Made by a program: the position numbers and the translations under genes. A model generated the notes under the pieces. It worked only from the letters and a program-made list of their open reading frames with translations. It searched no databases and had not been told where the DNA came from. A stretch of 64,000 nt of DNA from the NCBI RefSeq assembly GCF_026151205.1, contig NC_087078.1:14401118-14465117 (forward strand), read 5' to 3'. This DNA is from Bolinopsis microptera (taxonomy: Eukaryota > Ctenophora > Tentaculata > Lobata > Bolinopsidae). Shown piece after piece: positions 11,201 to 42,000 of the stretch; within the stretch, counting starts at the first letter, position 1, and each line of letters opens with the position of its first letter.

Positions 11201-14096
11201 TCAGTCTTCTTTCTTGTTCAACGTCCACAGGTAATAACTGAACACACTCAAGGCCGAGAACCAAAGTGCTGAGGGAAGCATGAGAATTCCAGCGAAATCG
11301 TAAAGCTTTATGAACAATCCCAGAACTATGAATGCACTTACTGCTGCTAAACAAGCTATCAGGAAAGTCTGAAATTGATGTATTTATGTAACTATCTTAT
11401 ACATTTTATAAATAAAATCCGACGAATTGATTCGGAAAATATAATTTTAGTAACTTTAAAAAAGAAATGAACTAAATAAAAAGTAATGTCAATCACAAGT
11501 ATTTACTTAAATCACAAATTATGTCACGGTTGCTCAAGTATGTTGTTGCGGTGATTGAAATGTGGCCAATGTGAGGTTTTGATCGATTTACAAATTGATC
11601 GTATTTATTTGTGCAGTAATGCTTTATTTGCTATCTTAAAGTATAAATAGTTACTATTCTGTTTGTTCACATCTAATACAGTACACACTAATATTTTACT
11701 AACCACCATCAGCTCGTTGTACCCAAACAAGAAAATCGGCCACATTAAACAAAGCGCCTTGTAATTCGCTACAATAGCTACTGTTAATTGATTATTAAAG
11801 ACTTTGTAGTTTGATGCTATGATGACAGCCAACGCAGCTCCACCCTCTACTAAAGTGATGAAAACATATCCAGTTGCTGCTATAGGATAGCTTGTGCCAG
11901 TTGGTAGGAGAGTGGGTTTCATCATTTTGTCGTATCTAAGATATTAAAGATTGTGAACTTTAAGCTTAGTGTCTACCAATGAGCTGATTGCTGCTTCCAA
12001 GTGGCTTTTCATCCTCGACTAGTAGTTATAATAATGCATGTTCCTTTTGGCGAGACTTTTCTTAAAATTTATACAGTGATTGTCAACCAAGAGAGAATTT
12101 TTCCCAAAATTTGCTGTGTGTTAGTTTCCCCAAATATTATTTGGATCAGGTATATAAATAGATTTGGACATTACTGATACGTTTTTCACTGCAATGGAAA
12201 TATTATTATATGTATAGCTGACTCACCATAATCAAGTTTTCGAAATGAAATAGCACAGCTGGCCAAATAAAGTAGAATGCTTTGAAGAACAGAAAGACAG
12301 CTGCAGTTGATACACTCTTGAATAATTCATATCGAGACACTTGAAGTCCAGCAAAGACGGCAACCCCATCTAACATGCCTGTAACCACATATGCTGCAGC
12401 AATGTATCCAAAAGAGGAACCAGGTGTCCAAGATGGTTTCTTATATTTGTCGTAACTGGTTGATATATGGTGAATAAAAAATCAGTACAACCCACATTTA
12501 AAAAGCTTCCCCCTACTTTCCTTAATTCTGAGCACTTCTTTTTCCAGATTCATTTTCCTTAATCCTTAATGCAATGGTACCTTAATCCTGATCAAAGTTT
12601 TTCTTAAATTTAGGGCCAGCTTTTCATTTGTGGTATGTAATCTGTCTGAAGCTGTGTGCTATTTATACCCATTGTTTGATCCCTATCATATTTTGTGATT
12701 TACTGCCTAGAATTCTTGCGGATTTTAGTGATATGTTAGTGATATTACGATTGTTGTTGAAGTTTGATGTGTTTGATTGATGATAATATAGCCACACCAG
12801 GTGCTTACCAATAGAATCTGCACAAAGTAGAGAAGAGATAGTATGTATGCAAAAAATGCTGTTTTGTAAAGGGTCAGAGCTAAGAACAAGGGGGTCCAAG
12901 TGGCAGCATTGAAGACTTCCTGTTTTGAAGCAAATAATGAGAGCCCCATTCCCTCAATAACGCTAACTCCTGTATTGACTACTGCAAGGAATACAAAGGA
13001 CCACTCTGGAACCCACTCTGGCTGTTTAAGAGCTTTGTATCTAAAATTTTGGCCATATTAGTTTTCAAATTAAATTTAGGTCAAACTGAGATACTGCATC
13101 CATTAGATTTAGGTTTATACACACTGCACTGTACGCTAGTTTAATCAGTATTATATCACATATGGATAATGGATAATGCATAATGGATAATGCATAATGC
13201 ATAATGGATAATGGATAATGGATAAGGTAAAACATTATTTTATATTTTAGACACTGTTATATTGTGTGCTGTTAAACGAGGCAGAAAAATGAAGTGATCG
13301 ATTGTTATATTTATCTTTTGACACCTACCACAAATGGCTGCACTATGAAGAAGTAAGAAAATGGCCATGCATAGAAGAAGGTAAGGAAAACAGCAAAGGC
13401 AAAGAGCATTGAGCATTTCCATCTTTCATTTGGAGTACTCTTCGATACGATCATTATTGCTGCTGCACCATGAGCAAGACTAAAGCCAAACCAAATACTC
13501 ATCAAGAGTTCAGCCATATCATCTGGCAACCATTCTGGTTTTTTCATTGCCTCATATCTGGAGAAATAGATGGTTTTAAAATTTTCAGCCTCTCAGAGAT
13601 TAAAGCTATGTCCCAAGGTCCAAAATTTTTGCAGCTGGTTAACATGCAGGCTAGCTTTACAGCTTTTCAGCACAAAAGAATGAAACCCATAATTTGGATG
13701 CAGCACACAGCTTCAGACCATTATAATAAATTACAATTAAATGCATTAAAAATTTGTCTATTGAAATATGAATTTATTTGAAGAGTACGTGAAGATAAAA
13801 TCTAAAAGTTGGGATGCAATGTCATTGAAAAGGAACTGTTGACCCTGAAAATAATTATCAATAAATCATGTTTATACTTATAAAACCAATGTCATTGCAT
13901 CCCCTTCCAATTTCCATTTAATTATGCAAATTCAATGTTCATGCTAAAACTAGCAGAGAGAGACAAATTAAGCTAAACTTTCAACTCACGTGTCTTTGCT
14001 GGTATCAAGCCAAGTAAACAGTGTAATGGTAATTAGAGTTGGGATAAACAGACAAATCACCCACCATAGCCATCTTCCTCCATGACAGTTATACAT
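11201..14096 (-). CDS. TSPO: Translocator protein (TSPO/TspO family) with four alternative TM2-TM3 exons
   Basis: TSPO is a five-helix outer mitochondrial membrane protein that binds porphyrins and cholesterol. Exon 1 (14096-13990) starts MYNCHGGRWLWW and encodes TM1. Four homologous exons follow: 13557-13329, 13040-12809, 12455-12227 and 11935-11704. Each encodes TM2-TM3 (KPEWLP, QPEWVP, KPSWTP, KPTLLP, then WP-type TM3). The last exon (11368-11201) encodes TM4-TM5 (LPSALWF...YYLWTLN), ending at TGA. Exon 1 ends in phase 2; every middle exon enters in phase 2 and leaves in phase 0; the last exon enters in phase 0. Exon 1 plus one middle exon plus the last gives 167 or 168 residues, the usual TSPO length. 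Joining two middle exons shifts frame. An in-frame TAA lies two codons before the ATG. The family call rests on recalled similarity to TSPO. Confidence 0.82.
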
Positions 14097-30351: not shown

Positions 30352-33300
30352 ATGGGTGATGAAGCTGTCACGTTACTGAGCAGTGCTGCTAACGGAATAA
30401 TACCAACACCCACCGCCGCCCTCAAAGAAGCGGTGATTGAACCTCAGCCATCATCGTCAACCTCTAACATCAATGAAGAGGTGACAGAGAGCCAACCAAC
30501 AATCTCAGTCCAAGATGAGGAGATAGAACCTCAGCCAAGAACCCGGCTATGCGCTGAATCCAAACCTAATGACCCGTTTCTTACACGGCCTCGAAGCAAC
30601 GCATCAGACTATGTCAAAAACCCGCGGAGTCCTTCATCAAGTATTGATCTGGGCAGAAGTGAGGACGGCGAAAAAGATCCTCTACAGAATGGGGTCCCAG
30701 CGAAATTGAACCTGGAGGTTACTGGCAACCTTACAAAATCCAGCTCTTTAAACGGCAGTTCAACGTCTGTGGACGACGTAAAGGTGGTCGTTGAGGACAA
30801 TGATGACGTGATCATGGAATCCCCCTCAGTACACCAAAAGGAGTTCTCCCCTGAGGTCTCCTCCGAGTTGTCATCCGAGTTTACAGCCGAGACTGGAGTT
30901 CCAAAAGAGGAATATGTCCTTTCTGGGACTGGATCTGGTGGTTCTGTTGGTGGATCTGGAGGTTCTGTGGGCTCTGAACCGGAGCCTGGTGCGTCTCTGG
31001 AACCGGTGGTGAGGACTAGTTCAGGGTGCGATCTTCTACTTGTTACCCCAGGTAATACACTCTTTGAGGTGAATTATGTGTTATTACCTGATTGTTTTAT
31101 GTCTATTGTTATAGTACAACAAGTAACTTGTTGTGTTCAAATTTAGAGTGCAACTTGAGGGATTATTTTCATGCAAGTAAAATGATATGGATTGTGAATA
31201 TTTTAATTATAGACAAAAAACTTTTATCCCGACGGTCACTATAACTACCCATTGAACAGATGTCAAGAAAGCACGCAAATGTGTTTGCCACATTGAAATT
31301 GCAATTTAGCCTCATTAGACTCAGTTTACGGACACAGCTGCCATTCTGTTTAACTAGTGTCAAATAACTCTTTACTCTTTAGTTAGTTTATACATGCATG
31401 CTAGCATGTACTTCGAGGTTTTTATTGCACAGGATTGTGGTGCACCATATGGGTGTATAGCTCAGTGGTAGAGCAATCGACTGCAGATCGATAGGTCCAT
31501 GGTTCAACTCCGTGTGCGCCCTCTACTTTTGATTTTATGTATTTGCTACAATAAGGTCTTATTTGTTATATTTATGAATGGGATGAGGCTAGCAAGCTAG
31601 TGAGGTGCCGATTACCTTTTATTGTGCAGTACGGCTACCGGCTACGACCCTTTTAGGCTACGGTACAGATTTCACTGAAGCACAGTCCGGACGCTACTTC
31701 AAGCATTATATACACTCGTTTTATTCCGAAGCTGTAATGAGAGCTTTTAATATTCACATCATGGTTGGATAAGCGACGGCTGCCTTTCAACACCGAGATA
31801 TTGACCCAGCCCGGATTCGAACTCGCTTCCTCAGGGCTAGTAGACAGGCGGAATAATGGATTAACCAACTGAGCATCTGAGTCAGTGTTAGACACCTCAT
31901 GGTTTTATACATCTTGCTTTTATTGCACAGGATTGGGTGCACCATATGGGTGTATAGCTCAGTGGTAGAGCAATCGACTGCAGATCGATAGGTCCATGGT
32001 TCAACTCCGTGTGCGCCCTCTACTTTCAATTTTATATATTTGCTACAGTCGTCAGTCATCTTTGTCACGCCATACTTGCTGTTAAAAACACTGGTCAAAT
32101 AGACACATATTACACTGCCTTAAGTAAAAACCGTCCTTATCAGCAAAATATCTAGAAGACAATAATTGGAAATTCGATATGTTATCTGATGTAATCCCCT
32201 ATTTAAACTTATCAGGTGACACAGTGAGTGACGACGAAGGAAGTGAGACTGTGTCTGAAGCTCCACACCCACCTGATGACTCTACTGATGAATCTGAGGA
32301 TTTTGGTGCACAGGTATTACAACTATTACCAATAGCAGCATAAAATTTGTAGTACGACTTCTATTTCATATCAATTTCAACTTAGGAAAGGTATTCGATG
32401 CTTATACAACGGTCATTGGTCACCTTAAATGACTCTTAAAGTCTGATTGCCAAACTAAACCTCAATATTTACAGGAATACCCTGCGGAATGGTACACGGA
32501 CCAAAAACACGTGTTCATATTCAGCGAGGCAGGGAAACCAATCTACAGCAGGCACGGCAAAGAAGAGAACATAGTGGGGCTGTACGGGGTGATGCAAGCT
32601 CTGCTCAGCTGTGTCCAGGACAACTCTGATGATCTCAGCTGTATCAGGACCTCAAATCGTTTGTTTGTATTCCGGTGTCATCCCCCGCTCATCATGGTTG
32701 CTATCGCCCATTTGAACGAGAGTGAGGAGCAGCTGTGTCGACAGTTGAAATACGTTCACCATCAGGCTGTCTTTTTTCTGACTCAGTCCCATATGGCAAG
32801 GCTGTTTAAGAACAGACACAACTATGATCTGAGGCGTCAGCTTACCGGACTTCCCAAGTTCTTCAACGGGATCATTCAGTTCGTTGAGGAAGAACACAGC
32901 TTTTTGTTAGAATCAATCCGGTGTCTCCCCATGCCACAATCATTGCGGAATGAAGTGACCGCCATCCTTCTCAGTAACCGATGTCCGGAGCTCGTTTTTG
33001 CGATTGTGATCTACGAACGACAGATAATCTCCATCGTCCGGCCCAAACAATACGCGGTTACACCACAAGATCTGCACCTCTTGATGAACTACGTGCAGAC
33101 AGGCAGCACTCGAGGTCATGGTGAGAAATGGGCACCTTGCTGCCTCCCCGACTTTAACGATGGAGGCTACCTTTACATTCACGACTCCTACATCTCTGAA
33201 ACTACGAACGTGAGCCTGGTTCTTATAACAAACGAACGGGAGCAACACATAACCATGATAGAGTGTAAGCAGAGGATTGTAGATCAGATGGTCGCTCAGA

Positions 33301-36045: not shown

Positions 36046-39000
36046 ATGGACGTTCCAGATGATATAGAAGAAGTTAACCTGGTCCGAACCAAAGAGGACG
36101 CAGTAAACTGGCTGGTGGAAATGACCGGTTGCTCAGTGGGACATGCTCAGATTGCTCTGACACGGTCTGGTGGTGACATATCTGACGCTCTTGATGTACT
36201 TCCTAGCATTCAAAACGTAGGTTTTAGGCTCCTTGGTGTTCTTTTCCTGTTATCACCATGACGTGTCGAACTAGATAGTTCAATAATTCCTAGTTCAGCA
36301 CTAATTCAGAAACAAGTGACGTATGATTAACTTATAGGAACCTCCGCCGACTACAGATCAAGAGGTAAGACGACTCATCGATGCAGCGGATGCCAGAACA
36401 TCATATTCAATTGAAGAGACGGAAACTACTCCGGGACAAGAAACCATTGAAATATCTGACGATGAATCTGGTGAGAAGATGATTGATAACGCTACTGAAA
36501 ATGATGGTGGTGGTATAGAGGGTTCAGCCGGCAGAATCTCCAAGAAACTTGATGTTTCAGTTGAACGAGCCAGGGCAGCTTTAAGACTGGCTGGAAATGA
36601 CGAGCAAACGGCAGTTGATATTATTGAAAGGCAACTCAAAAAGGTAAGAGCTATATTTTGACAGAAACATTAGGTGACCATAATGATTTTCATAAGATGT
36701 TGGTTAACAAGTCTTTTGGGCTGAATTTTTAAGTTTTTAGCTAAATTCCTTCCTTTTGTAGTCGACCCTTCTCCATGATGATTTTACAAATACGAAACTT
36801 TTTGCAGAGAAAAAGGCCTGCAGAACCGTCCGTTGCAGATATAAAGATCACCGATCACTCTCCGCCGCCTGAGGTTACTCGCGGACCATGGGTAGGTGTG
36901 ATTTTAATTATTGGTGCAGTTTTTAGGTGGGATAGGTTCTTTTCTTTTCTATGTCAATTTGAAGAAATTTGGTATATCTGGTGCGACCAACTTACCGTGT
37001 ATGTATAAGGAGTGAATGTGTAAATAAGTGTAACCTTTTTGTAAATAAACGTTTTAACATTTATTGTTTATTTATTTAATTGTTAATTTCAGGAACTAAC
37101 TCTGTTATCATGGAATGTGGATGGTTTGTGTGAGAGAGGTATTTCAGAGAGGTTCAGTGCTGTTATTTCAGAGATAAAAACTATTAATCCACATGTTGTG
37201 AGTTACAATCGTTTACTTTTACATTCCGGTCCAATTTCATAGGGTTTTGTCAAGTTAGCTCACTCTAGACATACCATGAGCTATAAATAGCTCATACAAT
37301 CAAGGCGTGGTATAATTTGCCTTGTTCATTAATTAGGATACTGACATTATGTTAGTTCATACTGTTTGTGTTACGGGCCTGTACAGTTGGTTAATAAAGT
37401 TATATTAATTAATTCTTCATCCCTTTTGGTGATGCTACAAGAGGTGGTAACTGAGCAAGTTGAGCGTCTCAGATCCTCACTAGGACGATCCTACGACCTG
37501 ACCTTTGGAGATAGATCTTCACCCTACTTCAACGCTCTACTTATCACCAGGTTTCCTAGTCAGTTTCAGTAATTTACTCACTTATTTGTTAGATCTGCTT
37601 ATTGTTTTCATTATTTGTAAACTGTGTTTATTAAAATGGTAGCTGGGCTGGATTTATCAAAGGTTGGATCCGGATCTAGGCTCATATTTTTATCAGAGTG
37701 CAGGGAGTGAAAGTAGCTTGGTTGTCATTCCTGCGACCTGATTGGTCAATGGCTGCCATTCCTGCGAGCTGATTGGTCAATGGTTGTCAACCGTTGAAAT
37801 CTGCCAGAACTGACGTAGTCTAGTCTTCAAATTCATACGAAAAGTTTAGTTAGCCAAATTAATACATACATTTTTTAATCTGTACGTTATAGGTATAACC
37901 ACACAATTTATCAGCATAAGATATCCTCATGTATAATTTCCTCTTATAACATATCCACATAATTTAATATGCACTTTCTGTGTTATCTTATATAATATAG
38001 GACATACGCGCAATTTTAAAAAGCATCAAAAATTCAGTCAATGCGAAACATTATAGATTAAGATCATCTCAATGTTTCATCTCAGAAGTCAAAACTGATA
38101 ACTGTTCGTAATTAGCGCAAGAATGAGAACTTCTGGGGATAACGAAGGACTATCTCTGTTTGATAAGAGTTGTACCGCTCATCCCTTCTTAGGGTGATTT
38201 AACTTGCCGTTTCCGATGTAATGGTTTCTTAGAAACTGTAACAACGACACTGAGAAAACCCCACATCTTATTTATATATGTATGATAAGGAAGAGAGTTT
38301 TCGACACTCAGTTACATGTTCTCTTGAGGGATTAAATTTTCGACACTTGTTCAGTAAATTGTTCCCCATTTTCCGAACATAAATTGTCCAGTTCTTCAAA
38401 GAACCTGTACTTCTCAATGGTCTCCCCAAGTGCTTAGTCACCGTATCGTCGTAGAGAAGAGGATTGATGATTGAATTGATCGGGAGGATGATAATGGAGA
38501 TGAGAGCATACCAACTTGTAGCATCAACTACTTCAAGAGAGTGAAGTCCACATATGACTATGAAAGGGATCCAACAAAAGAAATCGGTCGCGATGATAAT
38601 AGCTATCTTTCGGTTCGTCCTAGCGTTTCTTTTTTGGATTTGCTTGTTGCCTTGAGTGATTTTACGGGACGATCTGCTTGACAAGAATCCTATTGCTACG
38701 TAACTTATCGAAATGAGTATAAAGCAAACGAAATTCAATGCAAGTATGCCCCAGACAAAGTCCCGTTGAGGGTCAGTGGGTTGGACGAAGTATTTGAAGA
38801 GGCAAACTCCGTCATTCCCGTAGAACCCTAGCCTAACTTTTCCTGCTGTGTAATCTTCAACTGTGCCCGTATCATGAGAAAACATTTCATCAACCATTTT
38901 ATTTGCCATCTTCCAGCTCAGCCTTCCGTCCTTCATCCTTCCGTAATATCCTTCAACAGCATTCATTGCTGCTGGTTTACTGGTTAGCCCGATAAATAAT

Positions 39001-42000
39001 TTCAGCTGCTCAGGGTATTTAAACCCATTTACAAAGAAATCCTGGAAGCTGTCAGCTATGGGAATCACTGCTACAGCTACTGATGCTGCTGTTATCAGTG
39101 CAATTCCTGCTGCAATTTGAAGCGACCTTATTGTTGTAACCTCTCCGGGGATCCTCATGGAAGTAATGATTCCGTAGATCCTCATGAAACTAAGTGCTAC
39201 CATGGAGAAAAGGGAAAGTTGAGAACCAACCGTACTGATTACACCTAACGCAGAACAGCCAATACTTGTCAACCACTTATTTTGTTCCTGGCAAAAGGTC
39301 TTCCCATAGATGATGCCATCGTATACGGACACTGACAAGAGATAGGAACCAATCAAAAAGTCTCCTGCAGCTATTGAGGACACGAGGCACTTATTTAGAA
39401 GAGCCGTCCAAGTTCTACAATCCGTGATTGTGCGAAAGTTGTTGAAGAGGGTGAGAGTGTTGGCTAGTATTGCCGAACCTCCAATTACTATAGAAAATCC
39501 TTTTAATGCAACGTTTTCTAGAATGAATTTTGAACATCCTGAGTTGCATTCGTCAGATAAATCCAGACAGTCAAATTTCCCGTCACATACTTTCGAGTGG
39601 GGTATGTAGACTCGAGAGTTGTTGTTGCTACATTGAAAATGGTTTATACACATTTCTTCGTCAGAACCATCCCCACAATCATCCACGAGGTTGCAAACGT
39701 CCTTATAGTCAATGCATCGAATTTTATTGGAGCAGACGAAATATTTGTTAGTGAAGCCCCCATTTGCTCTTGTGAGAAATGTTAGGTATTCATTGTTCAC
39801 AAAGGTTCCAATTCTTTGAGGGTGTTGACTCGGACATGATTTATATCTCGGAACAGTTTTAAGGGGGCACTGGGACGCCCGGCACTTTTCTGCACAGCTC
39901 ATGTACACATAGTTTTCTCCATACATATGGCCGCAGTCTTGTACTTTATCGGGTAATGTAACGTATGTTTTCGTTTCGCCTAGTATTTCGTCGTTTGTGA
40001 AAGCGAAAAGCTTTTGTTCACATTTAATGTTGGTAAGATGACTTAGACTAACCAATCCATCAAGACATAGTGATGCTACCATTTGTCGACCGTTCTTTTT
40101 GGTGAGAGATTTCGTTTCTATCTTGTCTTTAAAAGATCTCGTACTTGAGCACACTTTGTTCTCGTTCCCACAAGTTTCGCGTCCATCACAGAGTTGGTTC
40201 AGTTCAGCATACCCAGGACTCTGGAGCTGACACAAGTACACATTTTCACAGCTGCTATTTTCCGATAACAATCGTTTGGTTTTCCCCTCTCCACAAGTTG
40301 GCCAAGTTTCAGTTTCGTCTTGTTCATCAATGCAGTCTCTTATCCCGTCATTCAGCCAAGATAGGGGTATTGGCAATTCTTTGGTTGTTCTTCCAAACCT
40401 ACGCTTACACGTTTTTTGGGTCATCAAATCACAAATGATGTTCGTTTCGTCGCTTTTGTCCCCACAATCAGGGTTTTGATCACACATTTTGTGTTTCTGC
40501 ACAGAACAAATGGTTGACGCTTGAACACATTCCATCTCAAATAAATCGTCACAAAGTCTGGTTTCAACACCGTTTTCACATGCTGAGCTAACGAAGGTGG
40601 ATACAGTTGAAGGGTACCCATTTATCTCACAATACCCTCCAATCCTCGTGGGATCTGAGCAGTTTGTTTGTTCCATAAAGTTGAGACAGTAAGGATGGCT
40701 GACACCATTATCATCGTACGTCATAGCGCTACACCTGGTATGGTTGAAAATGGGAACTTCCTTTTCATTGTCGATATATTGACGACGGACACATGAGTAT
40801 TCAGTGTATTCTGTCACCTCACAGTTTTGTTCGTCTCCTCCAGATTGACAAAATGGGACGCCATCGCATATCTCCGCCGGATGTACGTATTGATCTGATC
40901 CAAACATACTCTGACAAGTTAGCCCGTATTTAAATCCATTACACTCAGCCTCATCAGTACAGTCCCCCTCGATATCATAAATGTCGCACACATTATCACA
41001 GTTTCTAGTATCCGCAGAGCAGTACGAGTCAACTAACGGAATTGGATTTTCACATTTTTCTCTAATTGCAGGGGGTAAGTATGAGAAACTTGTACGCGGT
41101 AAAGAAAAAGTTTGAGTTATCACGATCTCGCTGCTGACAAACGTATGTAGTTTCCACAAAGAATCTGATCGTTTGTCATCCTTCCCTGTGCTTCTGTTCC
41201 GCAAACCGCGTAAAAATGGGGATCATTGGGGCAAACTGTGCTCAATTCCAAACCATCTCCTTCGACCGAGTAGATTTCTTGAGATGCAGCGCACTTGTAA
41301 AATTCTTTGTCATCTTTATAACAAACGTTCTTTAAGAAACCGCTTCTTTCTTTGATGCTGCACGTATCTGAAACAGGTGTTAGCATCATGAATATACTCA
41401 TTATTCAAATCTTGAATATACTCATTACTCAGATCATGAATATACTCATTACTCAGATCATGTTCAAAACTGACTCTCCTCTGATTAGCTTGGCCAATTT
41501 TGGGAGCCGACAGTTTATATTCTAATTCAAGACCCTATACTATAGCAATATAGGTACTAGTTACGTTTTCTAAAATAGTTCAAATAATTGTAAACGATAT
41601 GAAACTAATTAACTCACATTCGCCTGAGGTAAGTATCACCGGGAACAGAAGTGTTTGAGCAAGCAAGAAAAGATAGCTCATCAATAAATTGAGTTACTCT
41701 ATAATCATTTGTCATTCATTGATGGTTTCCTTATAAACAGATAGATAATTTAGAATCAGACATTTTCAATGTTATTACAATTGGTAGAACTCCCCTTCAG
41801 CCCCTGTTCATACGTGTTAAGTCTGCGTTGTCAGACTTATTTTGAGAGTATGTTCCATAACTTCATGTAGTTTGTTGAAACACTTAATATACACTCTTTT
41901 ATAAAAGGTTTAAATAGTAGAAGTGAAGGTTACATCAATATGTCTTTAACAAAACTTCATCACTAGAGAAGGGAGCTGGTTCAAGGACACAAAACAGGTC

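Follow-up and report, generated by a model that had tools for sequence, protein, structure and literature searches.

A divergent TspO/MBR-family gene of Bolinopsis microptera with four tandem TM2-TM3 exons and a predicted docking/selector arrangement in its introns

A TSPO-type gene occupies 2.9 kb of the minus strand (14096-11201) in the 64-kb stretch of Bolinopsis microptera DNA analyzed here (the window). It consists of a first exon, four homologous exons, designated cassettes a to d, and a last exon (Table 1). The introns were named I1 (between exon 1 and a), I2, I3, and I4 (between successive cassettes), and I5 (between d and the last exon), and are 432, 288, 353, 291, and 335 nt in length, respectively. 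AG acceptors and GT donors border all four cassettes, and in cassette d, a further potential donor located 3 nt upstream likewise leaves the frame open. An initial annotation of this DNA described four tandem homologous exons of 229, 232, 229, and 232 nt, spaced by approximately 290-350 bp, with exon 1 ending in phase 2 and the last exon starting in phase 0. This layout was borne out: the similarity of the cassettes in BLASTP was above chance, both phases were found, and the spacing agreed, with only I1 being longer. The same annotation named separate promoters and 3' exons for each copy as a condition that would refute its reading; tblastn searches of the 64 kb with exon 1, exon 3, and each cassette detected neither a fifth cassette nor another copy of exon 1 or exon 3, and the best other match in the window had an E-value of 0.054.

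A deoxycytidylate-deaminase-like single-exon frame (PF00383; 14824-15387, plus strand) begins approximately 0.7 kb ahead of the TSPO start codon and is divergently oriented. The window also contains a 963-aa frame uninterrupted by introns, with LDL-receptor class A (LDLa) domains and a rhodopsin-family 7TM domain (38334-41222, minus strand), and a pair of tRNA-Cys (gca) genes separated by about 500 bases (31451-31523 and 31948-32020, plus strand), and further codes for a MON1-like protein and a pentraxin-domain protein.

Table 1. Exons and predicted pairing elements of the TSPO-family gene, in window positions (fractions are the shuffles that paired as well)
Feature	Position	Strand	Remarks
Exon 1 (start codon, TM1)	13990..14096	-	107 nt; phase 2 at its end; GTGAGT donor; only copy found in window
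Predicted docking site, intron 1	13676..13719 (core 13719-13696)	-	44 nt; core 24 nt
Weak selector candidate of a, not significant	13603..13611	-	29/300, 141/1000, 577/2000
Cassette a (TM2-TM3)	13329..13557	-	229 nt
Predicted selector of b	13078..13103	-	37 nt before acceptor; 0/300, 0/1000, 5/2000
Cassette b (TM2-TM3)	12809..13040	-	232 nt
Predicted selector of c	12644..12660	-	about 187 nt before acceptor; 0/300, 0/1000, 0/2000
Cassette c (TM2-TM3)	12227..12455	-	229 nt
Predicted selector of d	11970..12001	-	34 nt before acceptor; 2/300, 0/1000, 12/2000
Cassette d (TM2-TM3)	11704..11935	-	232 nt (229 nt with alternative donor)
Last exon, exon 3 (TM4-TM5, stop)	11201..11368	-	168 nt; starts in phase 0; only copy found in window

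The full-length isoforms a, b, c, and d scored 40.1, 22.9, 35.4, and 32.3 bits, respectively, against PF03073, the curated cut-off of which (24 bits) was reached by a, c, and d, while b was narrowly below it. Exon 1 joined to exon 3 without a cassette scored 10.7 bits, and each cassette therefore contributes 12 to 29 bits. When the cassettes were searched alone, a (E 6.5e-4) and c (E 0.013) gave weak matches to this profile, and b and d gave none. Every isoform has five hydrophobic clusters, two of which are within the cassette (Kyte-Doolittle threshold 1.4), in agreement with the five transmembrane helices of the TspO/MBR family. When isoform c was compared with the sequences of solved structures, the four TspO chains returned had E-values of 8 to 9.6 and ranked under an unrelated photosystem protein at E 0.4. 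Since TSPO chains were reached at these values only, the gene is, as judged from its sequence, a very divergent member of the TspO/MBR family. The term "normal TSPO", which the initial annotation applied to the length of 167 or 168 residues, overstates the resemblance of a gene this divergent, one isoform of which falls short of the Pfam cut-off.

Translation of all cassette combinations confirmed that the frame is open when exactly one cassette is included, with products of 167 (a), 168 (b), 167 (c), and 168 (d) aa. Premature stops were present in each of the 11 ordered combinations of two to four cassettes and, as previously claimed, in the skip form omitting all four. The stop is the fifth codon of the second cassette in a+b and b+c, which the initial annotation had stated correctly, and likewise in a+c; in a+d, b+d, and c+d, it follows only after 46 codons of the second cassette. 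The duplicated unit is an asymmetric exon that is entered in phase 2 and left in phase 0, and the frame is therefore kept with one copy only. In the accessible text of PMC6071210, it is argued that nonsense-mediated decay (NMD) is unable to control clusters with more than three exons, as their summed lengths can reach a multiple of three. This argument does not fully hold for the TSPO cluster because the four-cassette form, which has the right length, still stops at the fifth codon of b.

The cassettes are old and have been retained. BLASTP E-values were 8e-15 for c/d, 5e-8 for a/b, 2e-7 for b/c, and 9e-5 for both a/c and a/d, and no match between b and d was obtained; the closest pairs, c/d and a/b, suggest the order of duplication. 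Protein identity was 22-35% in the five of six pairs measured. The third codon position was the least alike in all six pairs (0.23-0.36 vs 0.45-0.62 for the second position), and pS was 0.74-0.83 with pN of 0.41-0.57, indicating synonymous saturation with the frames still open. When neutral change was simulated (5000 runs), the share of runs in which a frame of cassette length remained open was 4.6% with 0.5 random base draws per site, 1.4% with 1.0, and 0.8% with 1.5; for comparison, 3320 of the 63772 76-codon windows on the minus strand of the 64-kb window were open.

These values bear on the idea of a decaying array, in which a single cassette is in use and the remaining three are left over from tandem duplication. 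The weak PF03073 match of b fits this idea; however, four cassettes that are open and spliceable despite synonymous saturation, as against the 0.8-4.6% of the neutral simulation, do not, and neither do the selectors that precede b, c, and d (see below), and we regard decay as very improbable. We assign a still smaller probability to overlapping shorter transcripts in which a cassette forms an alternative first or last exon and is served by a promoter or polyadenylation site of its own. In-frame ATG codons lie close to the starts of cassettes a and d, and AATAAA/ATTAAA motifs are present in introns 1, 2, and 5; however, these motifs are common in AT-rich introns, the products would not have TM1 or TM4-TM5, and tblastn within the 64 kb revealed no TM1-like or TM4-5-like exon between the cassettes.

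Two further explanations for exclusive use were rejected. Steric exclusion between cassettes requires shorter introns, and those present, of 288-353 nt, were judged too long. Incompatibility involving the minor spliceosome was dismissed since donors and acceptors look U2-type by inspection.

The first and last introns were scanned in 18-nt windows for a site that pairs with all of I2, I3, and I4. A single place in intron 1 paired with the inter-cassette introns at -23.5, -21.6, and -22.8 kcal/mol; the null was -12.9 +- 0.8, and none of 30 shuffles were as good, the null having been scanned at a coarser step. The alternative arrangement, in which I5 carries the docking site for selectors in I2-I4, was rejected (-10.8 vs a shuffle mean of -11.1; 19/30 shuffles as good). 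The 24-nt core of the intron 1 site paired with I2 at -29.1 (0/300 shuffles as good), I3 at -34.6 (0/300), and I4 at -25.2 (2/300), and with the 44-nt site, none of 1000 shuffles were as good for any of these introns. Among 1437 windows over the whole gene ranked by their third-strongest intron pairing, the best six were overlapping windows of this site. In nulls of the whole procedure at an equal step, -25.2 was reached by none of 250 shuffled sets (best -20.3) and none of 250 random-segment sets (best -23.2), nor was it reached by any of 3000 GC-matched 24-mers. The match in I2-I4 exists in the complementary orientation only. The selector of c is complementary to the docking site over 17 consecutive Watson-Crick pairs, and the selectors of b, c, and d all pair inside 13719-13676 with a common core, such that they would compete for the same docking bases. 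In the co-folding of 104-105-nt pieces, the energy gain was 21.2 (b), 24.6 (c), and 15.0 (d) kcal/mol. We consider this predicted pairing to represent a docking/selector anatomy like that of Dscam exon 6 within a TSPO-family gene.

I5, preceding the last exon, did not pair with the site (24-nt core: -14.8, 191/300 shuffles as good; 44-nt site: 347/1000). The upstream part of intron 1 gave -17.3 (88/300), and exons 1, a, b, d, and 3 were unremarkable against the core (90 to 197 of 300), while exon c itself reached -25.0 (9/300). With the short core, 11 of 600 random segments of the window paired better than I4. In co-folding, the five controls gained 2.1 to 9.9 kcal/mol and cassette a gained 9.2, one control equaling a; the controls partly paired with the core, with a probability of 0.09-0.59 vs 0.65-0.90 for the selector pieces. 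The distance between selector and acceptor is markedly greater for c than for b and d, and cassette a had no significant selector in any shuffle test (Table 1).

Other sources of the pairing were considered. A dispersed repeat was rejected since the docking (111 nt) and c-selector (131 nt) regions match only their own place in the genome; this search, which omits very common words, covered these two regions. Intron paralogy was also rejected: local alignments among I2-I5 did not surpass those of shuffled sequences in five of the six pairs, for which 37 to 210 of 300 shuffles scored as well; for the sixth pair, I3/I4, 16/300 did. The persistence of the predicted pairings, although the cassettes are at synonymous saturation and the introns are mostly unalignable, points to long-term selection on a switch.

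Mutually exclusive splicing may also operate without an RNA switch, with splice-site strength and regulators choosing the cassette and NMD clearing wrong joins. The premature stops in all 11 combinations and the skip form are as expected under this explanation, and so is the lack of a significant selector for cassette a. However, it leaves unexplained why a single site in intron 1 should be complementary to I2, I3, and I4 alike but not to I5, and we consider it unlikely.

We instead consider it probable, from sequence evidence, that this is a divergent TspO/MBR gene in which the TM2-TM3 exon was tandemly duplicated to four and is spliced in a mutually exclusive manner, with the choice made by docking and selector sites. 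The initial annotation proposed four mutually exclusive TM2-TM3 exons in one TSPO-family gene; this is the best reading of the locus and is supported independently of the frame by the docking/selector pairing, while we infer the use of all four. The docking site of intron 1 would pair with the selector ahead of b, c, or d, and with only one of these at any moment. The duplex formed in the pre-mRNA would loop out the cassettes in between and bring the exon-1 donor near the chosen acceptor, such that the exon just after the paired selector is favored. Cassette a would probably be the default, used when no selector pairs, or would rely on a weak selector; a default role is reasonable because a is the nearest to the docking site and the exon-1 donor. 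Messages with at least two cassettes or none contain premature stops, and NMD would remove them as a back-up. The products would be four proteins with common TM1, TM4, and TM5 that differ in TM2-TM3. Isoform-specific ligand pockets, as suggested earlier, are plausible because TM2 and TM3 sit in the swapped part. The fuller proposal, that a TSPO-family gene is under a Dscam-exon-6-type switch that swaps TM2-TM3 and provides four isoforms, the nearest cassette by default and three by competing intron pairing, appears to us reasonably likely.

As described in the accessible parts of PMC8042237 and PMC6071210, the docking site of Dscam exon 6 is in the intron that separates the first variable exon from the constitutive exon ahead of it, and selectors precede the variable exons. 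The TSPO-family gene shares with insect Dscam1 exon 6 this docking-site position, selectors upstream of the variable exons, and competition for the same bases. In contrast, it belongs to the TSPO family, has four exons rather than 48 and a first cassette without a significant selector, and its pairing is predicted. In Dscam exons 4 and 9, 14-3-3zeta, Mhc, and MRP1, homologous exons are likewise arranged in tandem and a single intronic site is complementary to several of the introns; however, their docking site is downstream of the cluster, according to the same portion of PMC6071210, whereas the scan of the last intron of the TSPO gene yielded none. Similar pairings are said, in the available text of PMC8042237, to occur in vertebrate genes, and the docking/selector mechanism is therefore not confined to arthropods.

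The TSPO family is expanded in this genome. An exon-by-exon search of the genome with PF03073 gave 27 exon matches, which we grouped into about 14 other loci, some of them tandem, spread over C1, C2, C3, C7, C8, C9, and C11. This search missed the four-cassette locus itself, and similarly divergent copies elsewhere could therefore escape it. Conventional TSPO genes occur as tandem complete sets, e.g., three on C3. Those inspected on C3, C1, and C8 share with the four-cassette gene a phase 2 intron just before the position of the loop-1 tyrosine and a phase 0 intron before TM4. However, their TM2 and TM3 are each encoded by an exon of their own, and at the 9 of 13 loci examined, no internal cassette array was seen. 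Genome-wide searches with isoforms a and c, cassette b, and exon 3 revealed no further complete copy of the four-cassette gene. Exon-3-like exons were found at two C7 loci (E 0.18 and 0.25 genome-wide; 5e-6 against a small local database) and one C11 locus (E 0.11 genome-wide). The two C7 loci (C7:19627000-19636900 and C7:19829000-19838900) are similar, in opposite orientation, and approximately 200 kb apart; each has a divergent TSPO-like last exon, and they share blocks of about 90-99% DNA identity. A TSPO locus in C1:5591000-5600900 (positions 9841-1889 of that stretch, minus strand) has one TM1, one TM2, one TM3, and two TM4-TM5 exons (4760-4599 and 2050-1889), with no other TM2 or TM3 match there at E <=0.5; this TM4-TM5 pair may possibly represent alternative last exons.

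The initial annotation knew of no TSPO with such a cassette, and a search of the non-subscription literature, based on titles and the beginnings of abstracts, likewise found no report of TSPO with mutually exclusive or tandem exons or docking sites. A search for "PBR-S" found no paper, and "TSPO" is absent from the main text of a survey of human tandem-exon events (PMC9741552). The four-cassette gene would present a known mechanism in a family for which our search returned no earlier description. Both the physiological role of TSPO and its ligand are disputed. With TM1, TM4, and TM5 constant and four alternatives for TM2-TM3, the gene represents a natural domain-swap experiment on the function of the exchanged helices. 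Moreover, the compactness of the cluster (2.9 kb, four exons, and one docking site) makes exon choice by competing RNA pairings testable in a single minigene.
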